This document shows, piece after piece, positions 675 to 23,818 of a stretch of 25,423 bases of DNA (positions within the stretch are counted from its first letter, which is position 1; every line of letters starts with the position of its first letter). Location: positions 1 through 25,423 of IMG/VR virus record IMGVR_UViG_3300032213_000712. One strand, written 5' to 3'. The translations under genes and the position numbers were made by a program. A model generated the notes under the pieces. That model worked only from the letters and a program-made list of their open reading frames with translations, searched no databases and had not been told where the DNA came from. The DNA comes from a virus.

Positions 675-2573
675 TCACCCATGATACCGCCCATAGGCGT
701 CTTTGTAGATGCCATTGGGCTTTCTTTCTTGGTACTGGCTTAACCCGCCACTTGGCGGTCTTGGCGGTGTATTGGCTGGCTTAGGCGCTGTAGCGGCTGG
801 CTTACCGCCCTTGTTGCGGAAGTGATCAATGACGGCGATGGCAAGACCGCCACCAATGCCAGCGGCTTTCAGGCCTGCGGTGAGGGGCGTACCGGGGGGC
901 AACATAGCCATCACCGCTGTAACCGCCTCAGCGGCTGACAAAACCGCACCAACATAGTCCCCACTGGCCCTTCTCTTAAATGCCTCATCTGCGGCAAGCG
1001 GCACAGCAATCCCCGAAAGTGCCCCTATGGTCTTGCCAGCCACCTTACCAGCAAACACGCCCGCCTTACCCAGTCCTGTTGGGGCGCGTTTTGCCGCATC
1101 CCTTTCCATTGTCCTAGCTATTTCAACTTCCCCACCCAATTCAGCGGCGCTTTTGCTTGAGGTCGACATAGTCTTTGCGTGGGCTTTGGTGGCTTGTTCG
1201 TGTAGGCGTTGGGTTTCTTCCATTTGCTGACGAGCAATCTCTGCTTTGCGCTGGGCCTCCAAAACGGCTTTGCTTTGGGCTTGTTGTTCGGCAAGGAGCT
1301 TGGCTTTGCGCTCGGCGGCGATCTCATCGGGTACGGCGAGTTGGCCCGGGGCGGGCTCGGTTAGGCTGAAGTTTGACAGACCCATCTTCTCCAGCCTTTG
1401 CTTCGCGGCTGTGTTTTGATCAATGATCGCTTGGCCGCCCTTTGGGTTGTTTGACCTCATGTTCTCGGCCTGCATCTTTTGCTCGAGCGGAACGTCATCG
1501 CCACCCATGGTGCTTGTCCACTTTTGAGCACCCTTAAGGTCAGGCGGCGCTTTCTCAGCCAACTGAGCCTGAAGCTTGCGAAGCTCCTCCTCGCGCATGG
1601 CCACGTCTTGCTTGCGCTGAGCTAACAGATCATCAAGCTCATCCAGCGCCTGCGTGGACTCGCCTGTGAATCGTGAGTTAATTCTGTTGCCAACCTCGCG
1701 CTGTTTTTCAGCCAGCAACAAATCACGTTTGGCTTTATCAAGAGCTTCAGTTTGTTTATCCAGCGTATCTTTGCCGTACTGGCCCAACAATAAGCCTGCG
1801 GTGCCACTGGCGGCAACGGCTCCAGTTAGCTCAGGATTCTCTTTTGCCGCTTTGTAAACGTCAGTGGCCGCTGTATTGGCACGCTCATATAGCGAGGGTT
1901 CGGGCTTAACAGGCGGCGTTACCGTTGGGTCAGGTTGGTTAGCCACACCTAACTCATCAATTTCACCAAATTTTGATGGCGGTGCCGATGGCGCAACAAT
2001 TTCCTCTTCTATTGGCGGTTGGCCCTCCTCACGAGGGGGAAGTTCGCCAAATTTTCCTGACGCCCCAGCCAGCATCACAGGGCCGCCTGTTGGCGTCAAG
2101 TCGCCCTTGTTTGCGTAGCCCACTACGTCGGTGTTGCGTATAGCGTCAATGTCTTCGAGATACTTTTTTGTTTTAAGGGGCAGGGTCGAAAAATCTTCGT
2201 CAGAATCCAAGTATTTTTTTGCGGTTGCAAGACTTGAGTTGTAGGCAACCAGCGCGGCGCGTGTGTGACCCTTATACCTGTCCAAGTTTTCTCTGAGGAT
2301 CTGTACGCCTGCCGCAATATTTTTGTCAGGGTCTGCCAAGTCCTCAAGCGTCATCTTTAGGCCTTTGGCGTTTACAGGATCTATCTGCATCAAACCAATT
2401 GCTCGGCGGTTTGGGTCTCCCTTAATTGGAGGCCCAAGGGCGCTAGGATCAAATGAACTTTCAGCGCTGGCAACAGCAAGAGCTAATTCAGGGTCAACGC
2501 CCATCTCCCTTGCCTTGTCAGCAATAGCTAGGGCGTATTGTTTTTGTTTGGGGGAGAGCTTGGCAAAATCCAT
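675..2573 (-). CDS. Virion protein with N-terminal SLT lytic transglycosylase domain
   Basis: 632 residues. Residues about 15-120 form a soluble lytic transglycosylase (SLT) domain. Catalytic Glu38 sits in ASAESSFDPSA, GLMQ is at 60-63, and the ALVAYNSS box is near 107-114. The family cleaves the MurNAc-GlcNAc bond of peptidoglycan. The remainder is disordered or helical: Pro/Glu-rich 190-260, hydrophobic Gly/Ala stretch near 270-290, coiled coil around 300-390, a K/Q/E-rich helix near 470-520, further hydrophobic helices around 540-620, and a Pro-rich tail ending in DAYGRYHG. Its place as the last late gene, after several large unknown virion proteins, resembles T7 gp16, where an N-terminal SLT domain sits in an ejection protein that opens the cell wall for DNA entry. 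A role in entry rather than lysis is therefore favoured, since a separate endolysin is present. The start overlaps the previous stop by one base (TAATG). Confidence 0.85.
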   Translation of the reverse strand: MDFAKLSPKQKQYALAIADKAREMGVDPELALAVASAESSFDPSALGPPIKGDPNRRAIGLMQIDPVNAKGLKMTLEDLADPDKNIAAGVQILRENLDRYKGHTRAALVAYNSSLATAKKYLDSDEDFSTLPLKTKKYLEDIDAIRNTDVVGYANKGDLTPTGGPVMLAGASGKFGELPPREEGQPPIEEEIVAPSAPPSKFGEIDELGVANQPDPTVTPPVKPEPSLYERANTAATDVYKAAKENPELTGAVAASGTAGLLLGQYGKDTLDKQTEALDKAKRDLLLAEKQREVGNRINSRFTGESTQALDELDDLLAQRKQDVAMREEELRKLQAQLAEKAPPDLKGAQKWTSTMGGDDVPLEQKMQAENMRSNNPKGGQAIIDQNTAAKQRLEKMGLSNFSLTEPAPGQLAVPDEIAAERKAKLLAEQQAQSKAVLEAQRKAEIARQQMEETQRLHEQATKAHAKTMSTSSKSAAELGGEVEIARTMERDAAKRAPTGLGKAGVFAGKVAGKTIGALSGIAVPLAADEAFKRRASGDYVGAVLSAAEAVTAVMAMLPPGTPLTAGLKAAGIGGGLAIAVIDHFRNKGGKPAATAPKPANTPPRPPSGGLSQYQERKPNGIYKDAYGRYHG

Positions 2574-4396
2574 TATGAGCCTGCTTTCTTAGATTCTCTG
2601 AGACGTCTCTCAAGAGGCCCCATATTGCTCTCAGGCGTCTTGGAACTTGGGGCTTGTTGTGCAGGCGCAGGGCCTTTTTGTGCAGGTGCAGGCGCAGACG
2701 CAGGAGGCGCGTTTGCCGCTGGCTTGCTTGGCGCAAAGTAATGAGAGTACAAAGCGCTCATGTGAGTGTCGTACTCTTTAAACAAGGTCGTGAACTCATC
2801 TGACTGGCGATAAAAATCTTGCACCGTTGCGGTTGGGTTGTTCTTTTCAAACTTGTAAAACGCATCAGCAACAAGTTGATCGTAATTGGCACGAGCCTCC
2901 ACAACCTTGGCCTTCATGGCAACAGATTTTGGCGTGTCAGACAAGGAGCCCACAAGGTTGGCTACCAATCGGCGCTCAGCGTCGGACACAGCGCCTTGAC
3001 CCTTGAGGTAGTCTTGGGCGGCCATAAGTTGCAGGTGACCTTGCACTGAGGCGGCATAGGAGGCGGCCTGTATTTCCTTTTCAGTGCCGCCAGCGGTGCG
3101 CACGGCCTGCTCTAAGCCTGCTGTACCAAATGAGCCTTTGTCCAAAAATTGAGCGACGGCGACGGCCATTGCGTTCAGGACACCGGGCTTTTGCAGGACG
3201 CCAAAAGCACCCTGCGTCTCTTTGTCAGAGGCAAGCTTGTAGAGCGTTTGTGCGCTTTGCTTTGTGGCTTGGGAGCGTGTGCCTGCGTTGAAAACTGAGG
3301 CTCGAGCGGCCTTGTTCTCCTCTTGCCTGTTCAACATAATTTGCTTAGCTTCTTCTTGCGCAAGAGATTTATCCGACGCGCTTTGAAAGCCTGTAATTTT
3401 TCCATCAACTTTGCGCACGCCACCAAGACCATGTGCGGCGGCAAACTCTGCAACAGCTTGGTCTTTTTGCTCTTCGGTAGCGCCGCTTCTTTCTAGCTTA
3501 TCCATTATCTGATCGTATTGAGCAGACATATCTTTGGTCATTTCCTGATCACCAAGCACGCGTATGGGGCGCTTGATAGAGCTTTGGAACTTCACCACCC
3601 ATTGGCTTGACATGGTGTCCCAAATACCTTCGGTGCTTACCACTTGAGCGTCGCGTTGAAGCTTAGACAAATCTTTCAGCATGGCTCCAACCTTGGGGGC
3701 CACAACGTCATACATAGCTATGTCTGCGTCAGTAATGCGGCGCATGCGCCCTGACTGCATAACGTCAGGAGGGGGTGGTGCGGCACCAGCGCCTGCTGGC
3801 TTTGCTGGCGCGGCTTGCGCGGGGGGTTGCGCAGGCGGTGGATTGGATGCACCACCAAGGGTGGGTGCAACGGGAGGAGTGCCAGTAGGAGCGCCAGCGG
3901 GCATCGGCTTAGCTTGTGGGCCTCTGACAAAGTTAGCCATCAACTGTTGCTCAAGCCCAACTTGGTTCAATGCTTGGCGTTGCTTGGCCAAGTCATATTG
4001 ATCCTTGCCGATGTCGATTTGGCGTTGATTTTCTTTTAGGTATGCGTCGCCATAAGCGCCGCCAATATTGCCAAGAGCTTCAATTGCATTGCCTGTAGAC
4101 GCAGGCTTGGCGGCGGCCCTTGCCACGTCAAGCCACATAGGGTTGAAGGGCAGGTTTTGACGAGCCTCTAGCGATTTAGACAGCTTTTCAATTTGCGCGT
4201 CAAGGACTGTCCTGTCTGCGCTCATCTTCTGCATTGCTTTTGCAATTGGATCTACAGGCCCCTCTTCCTCCTCATCAATGGTGGCATTCATAGCCGCCTT
4301 GGTGGGATTCATGGGCGTGTTTACTTGCGCAGGTGGCGCGGCTTGACCTAGACCACCTTTAGGCTTGGCTTGAAATTCGTCAGGTACTACTGCCAT
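2573..4396 (-). CDS. Large Ala/Pro-rich probable internal virion protein
   Basis: 607 residues without a recognisable enzyme domain. Layout: a Pro/Ala N-terminus with an acidic DEEEE patch (41-45), a helical segment about 50-155 rich in Q/K/E, a Pro/Ala/Gly linker about 160-212, a long mainly helical central region about 215-550, and a Pro/Ala-rich tail ending in a basic helix (ERRLRESKKAGS). No signal peptide or clear membrane span. It follows the upstream gene by 5 bases with a GGGATAAAA leader, and its stop shares a base with the SLT gene start, implying co-translation. By position, between other large virion proteins and the SLT protein, I infer a T7 gp15-like ejection-tube component. The sequence alone does not show this. 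Confidence 0.8.
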   Translation of the reverse strand: MAVVPDEFQAKPKGGLGQAAPPAQVNTPMNPTKAAMNATIDEEEEGPVDPIAKAMQKMSADRTVLDAQIEKLSKSLEARQNLPFNPMWLDVARAAAKPASTGNAIEALGNIGGAYGDAYLKENQRQIDIGKDQYDLAKQRQALNQVGLEQQLMANFVRGPQAKPMPAGAPTGTPPVAPTLGGASNPPPAQPPAQAAPAKPAGAGAAPPPPDVMQSGRMRRITDADIAMYDVVAPKVGAMLKDLSKLQRDAQVVSTEGIWDTMSSQWVVKFQSSIKRPIRVLGDQEMTKDMSAQYDQIMDKLERSGATEEQKDQAVAEFAAAHGLGGVRKVDGKITGFQSASDKSLAQEEAKQIMLNRQEENKAARASVFNAGTRSQATKQSAQTLYKLASDKETQGAFGVLQKPGVLNAMAVAVAQFLDKGSFGTAGLEQAVRTAGGTEKEIQAASYAASVQGHLQLMAAQDYLKGQGAVSDAERRLVANLVGSLSDTPKSVAMKAKVVEARANYDQLVADAFYKFEKNNPTATVQDFYRQSDEFTTLFKEYDTHMSALYSHYFAPSKPAANAPPASAPAPAQKGPAPAQQAPSSKTPESNMGPLERRLRESKKAGS

Positions 4397-4401
4397 ATTT
4401 T

Positions 4402-5373
4402 TTATCCCAGTTGGTTGCCTTCGGCGTCATAAAAGCCGCCGTCTTCATCATAAAAAACAGCGCTTTCAGGCACGCCTGATCGAATAGAGCCGCCCTCTGC
4501 CTTGGCGGGTGGGTTGACGAATCCTGACAGATCAGAGAGCTTGGTATTAGCAGGGTCGTTAATTGCCTTGTACATGGCGTAAAGGGCAATCATTTGCTGA
4601 AGGCCGCTCATGCCGTACTGGCCAGCGGTGCCCGGAGCCGAGGTGCTAGACGTCTCCCCTTTTGGCACCTCTTGGTTTTGCATCAGCTTGGAGAAGTTTG
4701 CCGCCTGAAGCATGGGGTAATCTAACTTGGCCTGCTCGTTTGTTTGCGCAAGGCTACCCAAGTCAGCCATAGATTTCAGTCCACTTGTGCCGATTTGGTT
4801 TTGAGTTTGGGCCGTGTTGTTCAAGGCTGAGCCAGCTTGCACGCCACGATTTAAATCGTTTTGCGCCGCAGTCATGGCCTCTGAATAACCTTTGCTCAAT
4901 GCGCCATATTGCTGGCCCGTCAAAGCGCCCTGAATATCAGCAAGGGTTTGGCCAGTCACGTTGGCCATGCGGCCTGAGCCAAAATTACCCGATCCAATAG
5001 ATGCGGCATCCAGCGCAGGGAACACGTTCTCGCGTGCGTTTTTGTATGAAAGCCGCCCCATTTCGTCCACCACGTTTTTCGTGTATGGATTCATGTAGTT
5101 TTCAACAATCTGATTGGATCCTGTGTACCCAGCTTGGGTTAAAAGATCTTGCGCCGTACCCGCACTGCTTGAACCAGCGAATGCGGTCTGCGGGGCCATG
5201 TTGATAGCTTGCTGAGTCAGTGGTGACAGGCCAGCTACACCGCCTTGTTGAACGGCATTTTTTCCAAGGTTGATGATGTCTTGGTGGTAGTCGGTCAGGT
5301 ATTGTGGCGCAGTGGATTGCGACTCCTTGACCGTCGTTACATTCTCTAGTGGATCACCTTGAAACATGCTCAT
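4402..5373 (-). CDS. Probable internal virion protein with NPYT/GSGN motifs
   Basis: 323 residues. The centre has ENYMNPYTKNVVDEM (91-105), then NARENVFPALDAASIGSGNFGSGR (partly helical, 112-135) and a Q/A-rich helix to about 230. I recall this arrangement (YxNPYT..V, then a Gly/Ser FGGSR-like patch, then a Q-rich helix) from structural proteins of many marine and freshwater podoviruses. The family name is not certain. The C-terminal 45 residues are different: a basic glycine patch (KAEGGSIRSG), then YDEDGGFYDAEGNQLG, which resembles DxxGN repeats in the neighbouring protein at 5370-7853. The ATG overlaps the previous TGA by four bases (ATGA) with a GAAGGAAG ribosome binding site. I infer a T7 gp14-like role in DNA ejection. 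Confidence 0.75.
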   Translation of the reverse strand: MSMFQGDPLENVTTVKESQSTAPQYLTDYHQDIINLGKNAVQQGGVAGLSPLTQQAINMAPQTAFAGSSSAGTAQDLLTQAGYTGSNQIVENYMNPYTKNVVDEMGRLSYKNARENVFPALDAASIGSGNFGSGRMANVTGQTLADIQGALTGQQYGALSKGYSEAMTAAQNDLNRGVQAGSALNNTAQTQNQIGTSGLKSMADLGSLAQTNEQAKLDYPMLQAANFSKLMQNQEVPKGETSSTSAPGTAGQYGMSGLQQMIALYAMYKAINDPANTKLSDLSGFVNPPAKAEGGSIRSGVPESAVFYDEDGGFYDAEGNQLG

Positions 5374-7853
5374 GTTTGTGCTTCCTTCAAATAAGCCAAT
5401 GGCGATTTAGCCTTTGGTGGAATTTTGTCAACTTCTGCTGAGCGCTTGTGTGCGCGAATTTCCTCGCGGAATTTGTCTAGCACCTCAGCGCCAGCTTTGT
5501 TTGAGCCATTGCCCAATGCGGCAACTACATCAGCATCAAACACGTATTCTCCATCAGCCAGCATGGCAGGAATGTCGTCGCTTTGGCCGTCACCCTCGCC
5601 TTTTACTGCCGCGCCTTGTCGGTAGTCATGCCGCCCTTGAACCACAGGGACGCCTGAAACAGGGTGAGGTAAACCACCTTGCCTCATTTGAAGTCCACCG
5701 CCATCGGTTTTTGGTTGGGGTTGACGTACGCCGAGCACCTCTAATGGATCTTGTGGCATGCCATAGGTGAAATACGAGGGCGAAGCGGGTTGGTTTGGTT
5801 GGGCATAGCCACCGTCAGCCATGGGTTGATCTTCGACTTGGTTTTCAACTGGGTCTTCGTGCTCCATTTCGTACCCGGGCACCCCCAAGTTTGTATACAA
5901 CTCCTCCTGCTGGCTTGGGGTCATAGTCTGCAAGCCGCCCATGGTTGGGGTTACCGTCTTTACGGGGCCCATACCAAAATCAGTTGTACGCGCTGGAATA
6001 GCGGGCGCTTTGTAGACTGGGGCTTTATAAGTTGAATCTTTGTCCTTCATAGAGTTGTAAAGAGCCATCAAGCCAGCGGCACCCAATCCCGCGCCAGCAA
6101 GTGCCTTGATGTTGTCTGTGCTGAAGAGGTCTTTATAGTTGAAGTTGCTACCGCTTGTGGTCTTCGTCGGCGTTGTGCCGTTGTTTGTGGTAGTGAACCC
6201 GGGCGTCAGTGGGTTTTCAGGCGGTTTTGCTGGCGCAGGCGCATCCTCAATCAATCGGTATTCGCCCGCAGAATTTTTAGCCCATTTTTGACCAAGCTCA
6301 TCCTCAAAGAGTTCTTCGTCGGCGGCCAAGTCGTATGGGTCAAAAACATTTTCCCCTTCGTTGTTGTTGTAAAGGGGGCTTGTGTAGTCAGTTGGGTCGT
6401 CAACATATGGATACACACTTGCGTCTGTGTAGTCACGTGGGTCGTCAACATACGGGTATACGCTTGCATCTGTGTAGTCAGTTGGGTCGCCGTAATATTC
6501 ACCGCCGCCCGAATCGCCTGTCCAGCCGTTACTACTAATAATATTGGTGTCCGCACCACCACCCTCGTCAAAATGCGGCAAGCCGCCCTTTTTCATTTTT
6601 TGCACTTGGCCACCTCGTTTGTAATCATCCAAATAGCTTAAATCGGATTCGTAATATGCTGGGGGCTCCTCGTAATAGCCGGGGTCATAGTTGAAGTCAT
6701 ACCCATAATTGGGATCTTCGTATGTGAAGTCGTCCAAATAACTTAAATCAGGCTCAATGTACGGTGGGGGCTCTTCGTAATAACTGGGCTCTTCGTAAGC
6801 AGGCTCAACCAAGTCATATGACCCATCTTCGTTAACGTGCCATAGATTTCCATCAGCGTCATAGGCTTCATAGCCACCGCCAGTATCTAAGGCTGTGTCG
6901 CCATATCCGCTGTCAGCGTAATTTGTGCCGTCTCCAACCTCATTGCCGCCTATGAATATTGGCTCACCCATGGCATTGCCGTCAGCGTCAGCAGGCGAAA
7001 AAGACCCATCTGCATTGGCCAAAAAGAAGTTGCCCGCCTCGTCCTGCACAAGCACTGGGGAAGGCTCCGCGCTCCCTGTTGGGTCATCAAACATCGACTC
7101 ATCAATGTCACCAGCTTCAGCGGGAGTGTTGTTTGGAATGATGTTGTAATCCAGCCCAAGGTCTGTGCCTTGATCAAAATCAAACATTGAGTCATCAATG
7201 TCGCCGCCACCGCTAGGGTTAGCGCTGTTAGGGATGGTGTTGTAATCTAATCCAACGCCTGTGCCAACGTCTTCTCTTGTAAACACATCACCCAAGTCAA
7301 ACATGCTGTCATCAACATCTCCAGCACGCGCAGGGGTGTTGTTTGGAATGGTGTTTTCAGGCAAGCCAACCTTTGTTCCCTGATCACCCATGGAGCCAAC
7401 CAGCGCTTCATGGTCTGCCGCATTTTTGGCGGCAATTGCGGCTTTTACCTCCGCGTCTTGTGATGGTGCGGGCGCAACCACTGAGGTGGCGGGCTTACTT
7501 GCGGGAGTTGTTGCGACAGGATTGCCGTATTTGTCAAGGAGGGCTTTTCCAGCAAGTGCCACACCGCCAACAATCGCGGCCTTTTTAAGCGCATCGGTTG
7601 TTGGATTGGTTTTGGGTGCCGCTGGCGCTGTTGGTGTGGTGGTGGGCGTTGTTGTAGTTGTTGGAGCAATTATCGAAGTTCCTGATCCAGCGGAAGTGTT
7701 AATTGATGAGGGGGAGGTATAGGAGCCGACGTCAGTAACTGGCGCGGTGGGCGTGGTATCAACCGTCGTAGGCGCTATAACGCTGGTCAGCTTGCGCTTA
7801 GGGGCAAGAAACAGCTTGTTCCTTTTTGCTTGTAATTTTGCAATATCGGCCAT
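5370..7853 (-). CDS. Large repeat-rich acidic protein, probable virion/ejection component
   Basis: 827 residues of unusual composition. A basic N-terminus (LQAKRNKLFLAPKRKL) leads into a Thr/Pro/Ala-rich stretch (25-90) and a short hydrophobic helix (92-106). There are three copies of a segment ending DDSMFD/DESMFD (162-256), three 20-residue DxxGN...NxDGSF-type repeats (about 270-290, 331-351, 516-537), a Tyr/Asp/Glu/Pro-rich region with duplicated EEPP...DLSYLDD (358-410), and tandem 15-residue DPTDYTDASVYPYVD repeats (456-491). Glycine patches KKGGLPHFDEGG (421-432) and RQGGLPH (724-730) recur. Near the end is GQSDDIPAMLADGEYVFDAD (756-775), a motif I know from many phage virion proteins of otherwise unrelated length. 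The ATG has an AGGAAAC ribosome binding site. The function is unknown. Location suggests an internal virion protein. Confidence 0.75.
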   Translation of the reverse strand: MADIAKLQAKRNKLFLAPKRKLTSVIAPTTVDTTPTAPVTDVGSYTSPSSINTSAGSGTSIIAPTTTTTPTTTPTAPAAPKTNPTTDALKKAAIVGGVALAGKALLDKYGNPVATTPASKPATSVVAPAPSQDAEVKAAIAAKNAADHEALVGSMGDQGTKVGLPENTIPNNTPARAGDVDDSMFDLGDVFTREDVGTGVGLDYNTIPNSANPSGGGDIDDSMFDFDQGTDLGLDYNIIPNNTPAEAGDIDESMFDDPTGSAEPSPVLVQDEAGNFFLANADGSFSPADADGNAMGEPIFIGGNEVGDGTNYADSGYGDTALDTGGGYEAYDADGNLWHVNEDGSYDLVEPAYEEPSYYEEPPPYIEPDLSYLDDFTYEDPNYGYDFNYDPGYYEEPPAYYESDLSYLDDYKRGGQVQKMKKGGLPHFDEGGGADTNIISSNGWTGDSGGGEYYGDPTDYTDASVYPYVDDPRDYTDASVYPYVDDPTDYTSPLYNNNEGENVFDPYDLAADEELFEDELGQKWAKNSAGEYRLIEDAPAPAKPPENPLTPGFTTTNNGTTPTKTTSGSNFNYKDLFSTDNIKALAGAGLGAAGLMALYNSMKDKDSTYKAPVYKAPAIPARTTDFGMGPVKTVTPTMGGLQTMTPSQQEELYTNLGVPGYEMEHEDPVENQVEDQPMADGGYAQPNQPASPSYFTYGMPQDPLEVLGVRQPQPKTDGGGLQMRQGGLPHPVSGVPVVQGRHDYRQGAAVKGEGDGQSDDIPAMLADGEYVFDADVVAALGNGSNKAGAEVLDKFREEIRAHKRSAEVDKIPPKAKSPLAYLKEAQT
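6381..6488 (-). repeat. Tandem 45-bp coding repeats (DPTDYTDASVYPYVD)
   Basis: Two full and one partial 15-residue units in the gene at 5370-7853. The DNA is also strongly repeated, with copies of a GTAGTCA..TGGGTCGTCAACATA core spaced 45 bases apart. Third-position differences between copies argue for an old duplication under protein-level constraint rather than an assembly artefact. Confidence 0.8.
6624..6782 (-). repeat. Duplicated Tyr/Glu/Pro-rich coding segment
   Basis: Residues 358-375 and 393-410 of the gene at 5370-7853 share the pattern YYEEPPxYxExDLSYLDD[F/Y]. The linker contains YEDPNYGYDFNYDPGYY, so the whole stretch is extremely Tyr- and Asp/Glu-rich. Confidence 0.75.
7086..7370 (-). 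repeat. Triplicated segment ending in D[D/E]SMFD
   Basis: Residues 162-186, 200-225 and 232-256 of the gene at 5370-7853 share [V/L]GLxxNxIPN, a short variable part, then GD[V/I]D[D/E]SMFD. Periods are about 38 and 32 residues, so these are diverged units rather than exact tandem copies. Confidence 0.8.
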
Positions 7854-7863
7854 TTTTTGTTTC

Positions 7864-10518
7864 CTACGGTGTTTTTACAACGGGCTTGAGGGTGCCTGTT
7901 GGCTGGGTCACGGGTTTCAATGTACCCGTTGGTTGAGTCACGGGCTTCAAAGTCCCTGTCGGCTGAGTTACGGGCTTCAAAGTTCCCGTTGGCGCTGTTG
8001 GAGCAATTGTCGCCGAGGATGGGTTTGTCGGCAAGTTATTCACAGGCGTTGGAGTTGCTGGCTTTGTGACTGGGGTGGTTGCGGGCGTGCTGACCGCGTT
8101 CAGGCCGCCAGTTGGGGCGACGGGGGTTGTGGCAGGCTTGGTTACAGGCGTCAGCGTTCCCGTTGGGGTAACAGGATTGGTCACTGGGGTAAGCCCTCCC
8201 GAGGGGGCGGCGGGCTTGGTCACTGGGGTCAACGTACCCGTTGGAGTGGTAACTGGCGTTAGGGTTCCCGTAGGCTTGGTCACTGGGGTTAAGGTGCCCG
8301 TAGGGGCGGTGGTTCCAGCGCCAGCGTTTGCGGCTTTTGCCTTTGCCTGAGCTTCGGCCCTTGCATCTGCGGCGGCTTTTACCTTGGCATCGTACTCGGC
8401 CTTTGCTTTTGCTTGAGCTTCTTTTTGAAGCCTAACTTTTTCGTCGTATTCGGCCTTGGCTTTTGCCCTTGCCGCATCTGCTTTTGCTTTTTGCTCGGCA
8501 ATTGCGGCAAGTCGCTTTTCTTCAGCAATGGCGGCGGCGATTCCAGCGGCGGCGGCGGCAGTGCCCGCGTTGGTTATGGCTGTGCCAATGGCGGTGTTTT
8601 TTGGTTCGGGGGTTGCTGGCGCAGTAGTTGCGGGCGTGGTGGCAGGTGGCTTTGGTATTTCTTGAGCGGCCTTGACTTGTGCCGCATGCTCCGCATCTGC
8701 CTTGGCTTTGGCTTCAGCGTCTGCCTTGTCTTTTGCGGCCTTTACCTCAGCCGCGTGAGCCGCCTCAAGATTTTGTAGATCACGCTCACGCTGATCCCTA
8801 GCCTCGGCCTCCTCAGCCAGTCTTGTGGCTTCGCTTTGCGACTTTAAGTGGGCATCAAATGCGACTTTATCTTCAGCGGCTTTTGCGGCATTAACTTTGG
8901 CCTCTTCGGCGGCCTTTGCTTCGGCAACTTGCTTTTGCTGAGCGGCTACAGCGTCTGCCTCTTGTTTGGCTTTTGTGTTTGCATCAGCCAATGCCTTTGC
9001 GGCGGCTTCTTCCTTGGCTTGTCTTTCGGCGTTTACTCTAGCGGCTTCATCCCTAGCTTTTTGGTCAGCCACCTTCCAGTCCTCGTATTCTTTTTGCTTG
9101 CGTGCCTCCTCTAATTGCGCGGCTGTTGGCCCCGCTGGCGTTACAGGCGCTGGCGTGGTAGTGGCCGGCGTGATAGTGGTTGGCGTGGTAGTGGTTGGTT
9201 TTGTATATGCTTGTGCGGCCTTAACCTGAGCCTCTTGATCTTTTAGAGCTTTAGCGGAGGCCTTAACCTCATCAGCTATTAAGTCTGCGGCTTCTTCTGC
9301 AATATCGTAATCAAGAAAAGATTTTGACATCTTTACTTGACTTTCATATTTATTGTAAGAGTCAAGAAATTCTTTTTGGGACGCGCCCACATTGTTATCT
9401 GCGTTTTGTAAATTACCAAGCGCCGTTTTGTATTCTTGGGATGCGGCAGTGTATCCACTGCTATTTGCCAACATTAAAAGTTCGTTGTTTGCATCCCTAG
9501 CACTTTGAATAGCGCGTTTAGCGGAGTCGTTGGTGTCTTGCGCATATTTTTGCGAGTCCTCTGCTTGGTCAGCAGTGTACTGACCGTAAACTCCATTGGC
9601 CTTCCCATCAGCATAATCTTGGTTAACTTTTTTTGCATATGTTTCAGCTTGCTTAGCTCTATCAATTGCATATCTAGCACTTTCTATTTTTTGCTCGGCT
9701 TCTGTTTGTTTGTCCTGTAGTGGCTTGTTCCATAACGACATGACTTTTGACTTAGCTTTGTCAAGAAGAGCTTGCGCTGATTGAAGGGTCTCTGAATTTC
9801 TTGTTACCTTATCGTAAGCCTCTTGGGTGTAATGCGCACCAGCGGTTACAAGAGCGGAGGTAATAACAGCATCGCCAACACTTTGGCCTCGCAATATTGC
9901 ATTTGTCGCCGCAGATGTGGCGTTAGTAAGCATTTTTGTGGTGACATTTTTTGGATCTAGCCCATATCCACCTTGGCTTTCAGGCTTGTACAACAAATCA
10001 GTAACGTAAGAATTTACAGCGCCACCAAGTGCGGCATTTTTTATTTCTTCGTTCGTTGCTCCCAAAAGTTTTGCGCTTAGCGCCGCAGTTGATGAGCTTG
10101 TTAAAACTTTTTGCAATGTTGATGGGGGCGTTGCATTAGGATTGCCAGTGCTTGACGCCATGTAATTCATGCTCATTTGAATGACGGCTTTTCTCCAATC
10201 GCCGCCGTTCGCAACATTCACAATAGCTGATGCGTATGCGTATGGCATAACGGTTGACAGCGCAATTGTTTCCAGTACAGGCAGTGGGTTTTTTACAAAA
10301 GCTTTTGCTTGCGCCAATGTACTTGCGGTAGTTGCCTTTGCAACCTTTACCGTTGTTTGCGCAACCTTAGTTACCGCTTTGCCAGCGGAGCTATCCCCAC
10401 CTACCGATGTGTTCAGGGCGTTGCCAACTTTGTCGGCAATATTGGAATTGCCGCCACCAATACCAATTGCGTTTGCAAAATTACCTGCGGCCTTATTTAA
10501 TGAACTCATCAAGCCCAT
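7864..10518 (-). CDS. Large TolA-like coiled-coil protein with PTGTL decapeptide repeats, probable ejection component
   Basis: 884 residues from ATG at 10518, chosen because it is 2 bases after the previous stop and has an AAGGGGG ribosome binding site. A TTG two codons earlier is weaker. Residues 1-240 are Ala/Gly/Ser-rich with moderately hydrophobic helices (about 80-110, 140-175, 205-230). Residues about 245-440 form K/Q/A-rich coiled coil. A TTTPTT linker follows. Residues about 465-620 and 660-730 are Ala/Lys/Glu helices very like the periplasm-spanning domain of TolA. The last 145 residues are Pro/Thr-rich, with PTGTLTPVTK and PTGTLKPVTQ repeats. I recognise no enzyme domain. Location just after a small GNAT-like gene and before three other large virion proteins suggests a T7 gp14/gp15-type internal protein. 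TolA resemblance may be purely compositional. Confidence 0.75.
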   Translation of the reverse strand: MGLMSSLNKAAGNFANAIGIGGGNSNIADKVGNALNTSVGGDSSAGKAVTKVAQTTVKVAKATTASTLAQAKAFVKNPLPVLETIALSTVMPYAYASAIVNVANGGDWRKAVIQMSMNYMASSTGNPNATPPSTLQKVLTSSSTAALSAKLLGATNEEIKNAALGGAVNSYVTDLLYKPESQGGYGLDPKNVTTKMLTNATSAATNAILRGQSVGDAVITSALVTAGAHYTQEAYDKVTRNSETLQSAQALLDKAKSKVMSLWNKPLQDKQTEAEQKIESARYAIDRAKQAETYAKKVNQDYADGKANGVYGQYTADQAEDSQKYAQDTNDSAKRAIQSARDANNELLMLANSSGYTAASQEYKTALGNLQNADNNVGASQKEFLDSYNKYESQVKMSKSFLDYDIAEEAADLIADEVKASAKALKDQEAQVKAAQAYTKPTTTTPTTITPATTTPAPVTPAGPTAAQLEEARKQKEYEDWKVADQKARDEAARVNAERQAKEEAAAKALADANTKAKQEADAVAAQQKQVAEAKAAEEAKVNAAKAAEDKVAFDAHLKSQSEATRLAEEAEARDQRERDLQNLEAAHAAEVKAAKDKADAEAKAKADAEHAAQVKAAQEIPKPPATTPATTAPATPEPKNTAIGTAITNAGTAAAAAGIAAAIAEEKRLAAIAEQKAKADAARAKAKAEYDEKVRLQKEAQAKAKAEYDAKVKAAADARAEAQAKAKAANAGAGTTAPTGTLTPVTKPTGTLTPVTTPTGTLTPVTKPAAPSGGLTPVTNPVTPTGTLTPVTKPATTPVAPTGGLNAVSTPATTPVTKPATPTPVNNLPTNPSSATIAPTAPTGTLKPVTQPTGTLKPVTQPTGTLKPVTQPTGTLKPVVKTP
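7879..7992 (-). repeat. Four tandem 30-bp repeats encoding PTGTLKPVTQ
   Basis: Four consecutive decapeptides at the extreme C-terminus of the gene at 7864-10518, the last being PTGTLKPVVK. At DNA level the units are 30 bases with scattered synonymous changes, so selection appears to hold the peptide rather than the DNA. Confidence 0.9.
8215..8304 (-). repeat. Three tandem 30-bp repeats encoding PTGTLTPVTK
   Basis: A second decapeptide array about 220 bases upstream (in protein order) of the PTGTLKPVTQ array, separated by degenerate units such as PSGGLTPVTN, PTGTLTPVTK and PTGGLNAVST. The two arrays differ consistently at position 6 (T versus K) and position 10 (K/T versus Q), so each expanded locally. 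Confidence 0.85.
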
Positions 10519-10520
10519 GG

Positions 10521-10934
10521 TCAATTACCCCCTTGCAAGGTAATTTCGATGCCATGCAAATCTTCAACTTTGCTGTTTTTTTCTTCTCCCAATACGGTCA
10601 TCTTGAACCCAGCTTTGTCAAGAAGTTTTAGAGCCAACTCAAGATTTGTTGAAACGGTTAATTTTTCAAACCCGCCAAAAGCCAGCCCTTTGGCAAACTC
10701 TACGAAGGCCTCTGCTTGAGTGCGCGGGGGATCAATACTAAACACAACACCAGTGGCAACTTTTGGCCCTTCAATTATGTAAAACAACAAAGAATTATCT
10801 TTGCGAAGAATTCTGTGCTCTTTGGTATTTTGCACAAGATTTGCAATGTTCATGTAGACAATTTCCCAATGCTCACCAAAATCTTTGGTGATCGGAGCGC
10901 CGCGAATGATCTCTTGCGTAGTTGCTTCTTTCAT
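10521..10934 (-). CDS. Small virion-associated protein, possible GNAT-fold T7 gp13-like
   Basis: 137 residues, soluble alpha/beta. A central stretch with repeated hydrophobic beta strands (SLLFYIIEG, TGVVFSID) is followed by a helix AEAFVEFAKGLAFGGFEKLTV and then LELALKLLDKAGFKM. This is the pattern of the second half of GNAT-fold proteins, and T7 gp13-like small virion proteins have been noted to have it. The canonical acetyl-CoA loop (Q/RxxGxG/A) is not evident, so enzymatic activity is doubtful. It starts in an ATGA overlap with the preceding stop and ends 2 bases before the next large gene. Its position after the nozzle-like gene and before the large ejection-type proteins matches T7 gene 13. 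The fold assignment is an inference at low certainty. Confidence 0.65.
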   Translation of the reverse strand: MKEATTQEIIRGAPITKDFGEHWEIVYMNIANLVQNTKEHRILRKDNSLLFYIIEGPKVATGVVFSIDPPRTQAEAFVEFAKGLAFGGFEKLTVSTNLELALKLLDKAGFKMTVLGEEKNSKVEDLHGIEITLQGGN

Positions 10935-22744: not shown

Positions 22745-23818
22745 TTACCTCGTGTAGACAGAAATGTTGGGAGCCCAATAGATGGGTGAATTATCCCTCT
22801 CTTCTTGCTCTGCCTCAAGCAGATAACGAGCCGCTTGGGTCTCAAGATACTGCGTTCGCGCCATGTCGACGTTTGGCAATTCCATAGACATCCTGTGCGA
22901 TAAATTCATCACCACGGCCTCGTACCAGCGCTGGGGTATCTCCAACTCGCCATAAAGCTGGCCAACGTCCATGATTTGGCGCGAATACCACACGGTGGTT
23001 TGCACAAAATTGGAACTTGGGACGGGCCACAAGTACATGGTTGGCAGTGGAATTGTGCGATCAAACCAAAATTGGAAGGGTTGATTGGCGGTAAATTGCT
23101 TGTTTGGCAGGTTTGTGTAGTCGTCGCGGTTGAGGCGAGACATCTGAATTTCGCGGCCATTGGTGCCAAAGTAAAGCTCTCGCACGGCCAAGGTGGTGGC
23201 TCCAGTGGCCCGCATGCGGTAGTAGGCGACGTTGGCCCCGGGGTCAATGTCCTGCCACACCCACTGCTTATCAGTCACCGAAACCGCTGTTCCCGTGTAC
23301 AGGGTAGTCCACGTCAACGCATCAGATGAGCTTTCAAACACGTAATTCCATGTCTGTGATCCACCACCCGAAACGTAGGGCATGAAACCAATCGAGCCAA
23401 TGTAATTTGGATCGCTGACGCCATAGTCGATGGAAATGTCGCCGCCCGTGGATGTTTGCTGGCAAAAGGTGTCAATGTCGCCATCAAAGGCGTTTGCGGC
23501 CACGCCACCAGCAGATGAGGCCACCGTTCCTGTTGGGCGCTCCATAGTCCTGTACAGCACGTTCAAGGCGTCCACAGCCCCCAATGGCAGGCTGTAGATG
23601 TACTCGTTGGCCTTGAGACCCAAAACAACCTTGCTGATGGCCCAATACTGGATTCCACGGTTGACCAAGTGACTCAGGAAGAAATACAGGGACTCTCGGG
23701 CTGACAAAACTTGCTCAGAGGTCAACTCTTCAGCCAATTTTCCGCACCGACGCGCCCCATGGTCGATCAGGGTTTGTACGTCAATTACGGTGGTTCCGAC
23801 GGTTCCTGAATAGGCCAT
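22745..23818 (-). CDS. Adaptor/P22 gp4-like tail protein with inserted discoidin-like domain
   Basis: 357 residues in three parts. Residues 1-94 are a helical segment (VIDVQTLIDHGARRCG, ESLYFFLSHLVNRGIQYWA) ending in beta strands (NEYIYSLPLGAVDALNVLYR). Residues about 95-218 look like a discoidin / F5-F8 type C domain: NAFDGDIDTF near its start, ISIDYG, GFMPYV, then YVFESSSDALTWTTLYTG and a closing YYRMRATGATTLAVRELYFG. Residues 220-357 resume adaptor-like sequence (FDRTIPLPTMYLWPVPS, ELEIPQRWYEAVVMNLSHRMSMEL) and end in a helix and VYTR. The flanks fit gp4-like or SU10-like head-tail adaptors. The insertion would be displayed on the neck. It is packed 3 bases after the previous gene. Confidence 0.75.
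   Translation of the reverse strand: MAYSGTVGTTVIDVQTLIDHGARRCGKLAEELTSEQVLSARESLYFFLSHLVNRGIQYWAISKVVLGLKANEYIYSLPLGAVDALNVLYRTMERPTGTVASSAGGVAANAFDGDIDTFCQQTSTGGDISIDYGVSDPNYIGSIGFMPYVSGGGSQTWNYVFESSSDALTWTTLYTGTAVSVTDKQWVWQDIDPGANVAYYRMRATGATTLAVRELYFGTNGREIQMSRLNRDDYTNLPNKQFTANQPFQFWFDRTIPLPTMYLWPVPSSNFVQTTVWYSRQIMDVGQLYGELEIPQRWYEAVVMNLSHRMSMELPNVDMARTQYLETQAARYLLEAEQEERDNSPIYWAPNISVYTR
23165..23536 (-). other. Discoidin-like (F5/F8 type C) domain insertion
   Basis: The coding segment for residues about 95-218 of the adaptor-like gene. The FDGDxxTF opening, aromatic strands and final YxRxxAxG...VRELYFG are typical of carbohydrate-binding discoidin domains. The expected length of about 125 residues fits. 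Confidence 0.65.

Follow-up and report, generated by a model that had tools for sequence, protein, structure and literature searches.

The window, by which we mean the whole 25,423-base stretch of DNA analysed here, is a complete virus record and is likely a fragment. The genes of proteins P10 to P1 form one tightly packed run, all on the minus strand, which is transcribed in the direction from P10 to P1 (Table 1). The open reading frames were found at the positions assigned to them in a preliminary description of this DNA. Immediately upstream of the run are genes encoding a holin-like protein and an M15 peptidase endolysin.

Table 1 Genes of the P10 to P1 run, in the order of transcription, with predicted products
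Protein	Position	Strand	Length	Predicted product	Basis
P10	14410..15045	-	211 aa	Putative SU10-type head-tail adaptor	Pfam, PDB, SU10 gp11 profile
P9	13172..14410	-	412 aa	Fibre-like tail protein in the adaptor/nozzle interval	PHROG
P8	11178..13172	-	664 aa	Putative tail nozzle	phmmer, PHROG
P7	10931..11191	-	86 aa	W-repeat protein	Conserved position
P6	10521..10934	-	137 aa	Small accessory protein	Present in some relatives only
P5	7864..10518	-	884 aa	N-terminal half of a putative two-part pilot protein	Homology to long P4
P4	5370..7853	-	827 aa	C-terminal half of a putative pilot protein	C-terminal domain
P3	4402..5373	-	323 aa	Putative DNA ejection protein, SU10 gp21/gp22 family	PHROG
P2	2573..4396	-	607 aa	Helical; probable tunnel-type or cargo ejection protein	PHROG, AlphaFold2
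P1	675..2573	-	632 aa	Putative SLT lytic transglycosylase ejection protein	Pfam, PHROG, profiles

Conservation of the gene run

The phage group to which the window belongs is abundant, as a single scan of IMG/VR with the nozzle found 532 related stretches, 80 of which were fetched. A scan of IMG/VR with a P3 alignment provided 80 further loci. Gene maps showed the order adaptor, fibre, nozzle, W-repeat protein, P6 and P5 where present, P4, P3, P2, and P1 in more than 100 IMG/VR loci. Since the identical order was observed in so many related loci, the layout is not due to chance, and it is strongly conserved. The profile of P1 matched the open reading frame following P2 in 79 of the 89 testable loci. 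The region between P7 and P4 is variable and is made up of P6, P5, and an extra protein of about 370 residues. The latter is absent from the window and sits between P7 and P6 in L024, L030, L047, L053, L096, and other loci. Its positional counterpart in MW202545 is 314 residues long and matches phrog_35856, a family of unknown function.

The module is present in the named Caulobacter phages RW, RLK, KcrB, and GB2A and in MW202545. Matches in the more distant DSL-LC04 are to the C-terminal domain of P4 and to P3, and those in the more distant cyanophage MinM2 are to the adaptor, fibre, nozzle, C-terminal domain of P4, and P3. A megablast search of the module against named phages returned no match. 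The last gene of the MinM2 module (L177:15886-24297) encodes a 2803-residue protein of the polyvalent type, which has an LPD38 domain and is annotated as RelA/SpoT.

The Riverwalkvirus phages (RW, RLK, KcrB, and GB2A) share with the window the adaptor, fibre, nozzle, a small protein in the position of P7, P4, P3, and the SLT protein, in the same order. Unlike the window, they lack P5 and P6, their P4 is short (580 residues), the protein in the P2 slot is not matched by the P2 profile, and the SLT domain of P1 is located at the C-terminus, as in the GB2A protein (L003:5573-7741), where it covers residues 610-694 of 722. In two relatives that were checked, L141 and L133, the P1-slot protein gave no Pfam SLT match. 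In the published table for the four phages (PMC11053796), a "tail tape measure protein" is listed, whereas internal virion proteins are missing. The recognition of an ejection module would correct this annotation of the cultured members.

Putative tail proteins and ejection proteins

P10 is a predicted SU10-type adaptor, which matched the Pfam family SU10_adaptor (3e-25) and the solved SU10 adaptor (7z47, E 5e-5), and its family profile matched SU10 gp11 at 9e-56. P9 matched PHROG tail fibre families at 1e-8, and its place between the adaptor and the nozzle is kept in the gene maps of the relatives. Judged by this position, P9 is a possible short tail fibre; the short tail fibre gene of SU10, gp16, also lies ahead of the nozzle gene gp17 (PMC9509320). 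P8 matched the solved nozzle protein gp16 of the podophage VP1 in a phmmer search (8zkk, 1.5e-5) and phrog_3287 (5e-18), and its relatives carry the annotation "phage stabilization protein". P8 is predicted to be a short-tail nozzle, the match being to VP1 and not to SU10 gp17. P7 matched 147 open reading frames and is located directly behind the nozzle in nearly all relatives; no family was assigned to it. The GNAT fold previously suggested for P6 is not supported, because none of 29 P6 relatives matched a Pfam GNAT family. The alignment of P6 to T7 gp13 by hhalign was uninformative.

Outside the run, the minus-strand gene at 22745-23818 encodes a possible second adaptor-like protein, with a weak match to SU10_adaptor (0.005) beside an F5/8C-type galactose-binding domain. 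In MW202545 the corresponding protein bears the annotation "tail adaptor". One weak match to a major tail protein (0.0015) falls on the F5/8C-like insert.

P3 matched phrog_4287, labelled "DNA ejection protein", at 1.5e-5, aligned start to start. The same family was matched by 28 of 72 P3 relatives at 1e-3 or better (best 2.4e-8), and by the P3 protein of GB2A. SU10 gp21 and gp22, which leave the virion upon genome release (PMC9509320), belong to phrog_4287 (1e-118 and 1e-109, respectively). The P3 profile did not match SU10 gp21 or gp22 directly, and the hhalign alignment of P3 to the gp21/gp22 sequences of four kuravirus proteins was colinear and only suggestive (E 0.033, probability 1.5%). 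Because the direct comparison is weak, the tie between P3 and SU10 runs through phrog_4287, whose members include SU10 gp21 and gp22 and, as a putative DNA ejection protein, P3. The AlphaFold2 model of P3 is all-helical, with long helices. Its matches in fold searches (Z ≤ 9.4) were generic helical structures, including coiled-coil parts of unrelated proteins, and were dismissed, since this arrangement is common.

The AlphaFold2 model of P2 has a pLDDT of 77.8 and long helices, and much of residues 340-560 exceeds a pLDDT of 90. P2 is not a disordered protein, because the model is helical and largely well predicted. No relative of this folded, helical protein with a solved structure was found. 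P2 matched phrog_2534, "released from the phage upon host infection", at 1e-5. This family was matched by only 5 of 76 P2 relatives (best 8e-22), and the phage behind the label was looked for and could not be traced. The best matches of the P2 model in a viral structure library were phage proteins containing the lytic transglycosylase domain LT_GEWL (E 1.2e-6), with a low TM-score, which would weakly fit a functional tie between P2 and P1. The PDB fold matches of P2 (Z ≤ 9.9) were BAR-like, generic helical structures, and no function was read from them. Sequence searches of the PDB with the P2 and P3 profiles returned chance-level matches only, and tblastn with P2 of the window and of three relatives found no match in named phages. 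We consider P2 a probable ejection protein of the tunnel or cargo type.

P1 contains a complete N-terminal Pfam SLT domain (6e-22) with intact motifs: E38 (in ES), GLMQI, and AYN. It matched the internal virion protein family phrog_342 at 4e-18, and its family profile matched SU10 gp20 (1e-23) and T7 gp16 (7e-16). P1 is therefore predicted to be an SLT lytic transglycosylase related to both proteins. Two hydrophobic segments near the C-terminus (540-558 and 564-582) fall in a stretch that has conserved columns across the family. Predicted membrane segments were left out as a criterion of membership, because T7 gp14 and gp16 themselves do not pass the simple hydropathy test that was applied.

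The preliminary description regarded the proteins as low-complexity and only the SLT domain as recognisable. The former is true of P5 and, owing to its repeats, partly of P4, but not of P2 and P3, which are rich in A and Q yet folded according to AlphaFold2. The latter was mistaken, because the adaptor, nozzle, and P3 also match known families.

The P5 and P4 proteins

P5, with 21% alanine and 12% threonine, is built from a conserved N-terminal region followed by A/K-rich and PVTxPTGTL repeats, and its gene contains repeats at 7880-7993, 8133-8304, and 9137-9198. P4 has disordered repeats, with a 45-bp repeat at 6381-6489, and ends in a conserved domain of about 83 residues. The two genes of the window are in order and 10 bases apart. 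The N-terminal region of P5 forms the N-terminus of a long P4 in at least 22 relatives, where a single protein combines P5 as its N-terminal half with P4 as its C-terminal half; in 36 relatives the region is a separate open reading frame upstream of P4. A strict seed of the P5 N-terminal region, from which P4 proteins were left out, still found three P4 N-termini (best 2e-15). Reversed and shuffled controls gave no matches to the strict seed or to the iterated profile. The earlier view of P5 and P4 as two disordered proteins unlike those of T7 is refined here, in that they are parts of a single protein in relatives. A tblastn search with P5 found no match in named phages. A match of P5 to TolA was judged to be low-complexity similarity of A/K-rich coiled coils.

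The C-terminal domain was present in all 116 P4 proteins with an intact end, 1-14 residues before the stop, and the full length of P4 varies eightfold among relatives, from 397 to 3264 residues. No reversed or shuffled protein matched the domain, which has the motif GxGdgxSDdIPAmLadGEyVldAdvV. It also occurs in the tape measure families phrog_6090 (1e-5) and phrog_5448 (1.6e-4), where a transglycosylase match is located C-terminal to it; this parallels the position of the P4 gene before that of P1. Among the 60 tblastn matches listed for the P4 C-terminal region, 52 were annotated tape measure proteins, mostly weak one by one (E 3e-3 to 0.8), and eight came from the present module or the MinM2 group. 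The profile of the domain found the tape measure protein of Gordonia phage Woes (gp24) at 1e-8 in a small database, the corresponding stretch of that protein being residues 2545-2615 or thereabouts. P4 thus has its C-terminal domain in common with siphophage tape measure proteins; unlike in siphophages, the domain ends a protein of a short-tail module. A search for the motif and for a link between tape measure and ejection proteins found nothing in the literature covered.

We tentatively speculate, with the odds against it, that P5/P4 is a relative of tape measure proteins that has turned, in a short-tailed phage, into a pilot protein of unconstrained length, which is packaged, ejected, and sometimes split into two genes. 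If so, the ejection proteins of podoviruses and the tape measure proteins of siphoviruses would go back to one shared ancestral module, in which a tape-measure domain is followed by a transglycosylase in both groups, either as one polypeptide or as separate genes.

The motif [KR]x(0-3)GG is common to P3 and P4. Its enrichment over shuffled sequences is only mild (649 vs 402 in P4 and 208 vs 139 in P3), and nothing was concluded from it. Similar motifs are present in two small proteins near the end of the window (24127-23822 and 24577-24137).

Proposed genome ejection and alternative readings

We estimate a probability of about 75% that a short-tailed phage has in the P10 to P1 run its genome-ejection module, the known parts of which are closest to kuravirus SU10. 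The proposal of a DNA-ejection module, already made in the preliminary description, is well supported by the placement of P3 in the SU10 ejection family, the intact SLT protein P1, and the putative adaptor and nozzle. The module resembles that of SU10 in the type of adaptor, the short fibre and nozzle encoded ahead of the ejection proteins, the separate SLT ejection protein (gp20 in SU10, P1 here), and the common PHROG of gp21/gp22 and P3. It differs in that the SLT gene is first and the large gp23 and gp24 are last in SU10, whereas the SLT gene is last here, and in that SU10 has two gp21/gp22 paralogues where the window has one P3. None of the SU10 proteins matched the profiles of P2, the P4 C-terminal domain, or the P5 N-terminal region, and SU10 gp18 (the tail needle), gp23, and gp24 did not match those of P1, P3, or P6 either.

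The order of T7 genes 11 to 16, to which the run had originally been compared, is retained in the series from the adaptor and nozzle through internal proteins to a last protein with an N-terminal SLT domain and a catalytic glutamate (E38). The ejection operon of T7 is gp14-gp15-gp16, with the larger gp16 last (PMC8954989), an arrangement like that of P3-P2-P1. The comparison does not extend to the additional fibre gene between the adaptor and the nozzle, the additional P5/P4 protein, or the sequences of gp13, gp14, and gp15, to which no relation was found. Because of the adaptor type, the nozzle, the P3 family, and the kinship of P1 and gp20, the ejection set of SU10, the nearest one studied by experiment, is the better comparison. 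The module would function like the systems of SU10 and T7 and is probably nearer to SU10 in its tail and P3; the likeness to T7 is limited to gene order and the SLT domain.

Based on these likenesses, a mechanism of genome ejection can be proposed. The adaptor and nozzle would form the short tail. We infer that P3, P2, P1, and the P5/P4 pair are internal proteins of the virion, which would exit through the nozzle before or together with the DNA. P5/P4, a single chain in other members of the group, may act as one long, flexible, mostly disordered pilot, moving ahead of the DNA or threading it. The SLT domain of P1 would open the peptidoglycan, and the C-terminal hydrophobic pair may hold P1 in the inner membrane. 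P3 could be a helical protein that forms or extends a channel, and P2 a helical part of the periplasmic conduit, so that P3 and P2 together would extend the conduit.

A strict homology of the module to T7 gp13-gp16, diverged beyond recognition and with a T7-type core stack in the capsid, would account for the gene order, the relative sizes, and, as in gp16, an SLT domain at the N-terminus of the last protein. We consider it unlikely, given that the profiles of P2, P3, and P6 had no sequence match to the internal proteins of T7, SP6, phiKMV, or P-SSP7, that P3 belongs to the SU10 family and has 323 residues compared with the 181-240 of gp14 (PMC8954989), and that P5/P4 has no T7 counterpart. 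No internal protein of these four phages, T7 gp14 and gp15 included, was among the fold matches listed for the P2 and P3 models, an absence that cannot exclude them. Even less probable is a long-tailed phage in which P4, or P5 with P4, is a true tape measure protein and the other proteins are components of the tail tip. The C-terminal domain of P4 is common to tape measure proteins, MW202545 is labelled Siphoviridae, and the table for the RW cluster (PMC11053796) would fit this interpretation. Against it are the SU10-type adaptor and short-tail nozzle, the ejection family of P3, and the eightfold variation in the length of P4, which is unlike a ruler. In addition, the scanned proteins of the window, a record that is a fragment, gave no match to a tail tube or tail assembly chaperone family.

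P5 and P4 might instead be capsid cargo or head-assembly proteins, scaffold-like or akin to polyvalent effectors, that are encoded in the operon and act outside the DNA conduit. Their disordered repeats, large variation in length, and the variable slot of P5 are consistent with this role, as is the polyvalent LPD38 protein at the end of the MinM2 module. We regard the cargo role as doubtful, since every P4 whose end is intact carries the C-terminal domain and P4 directly precedes P3. For the ejection module that we favour, the constancy of this domain next to the eightfold variation of the rest of P4 connects the putative pilots of short-tailed phages with the tape measure proteins found in long-tailed ones, in a way that can be tested. 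Relatives that can be grown on hosts exist in the Caulobacter phages RW and GB2A.
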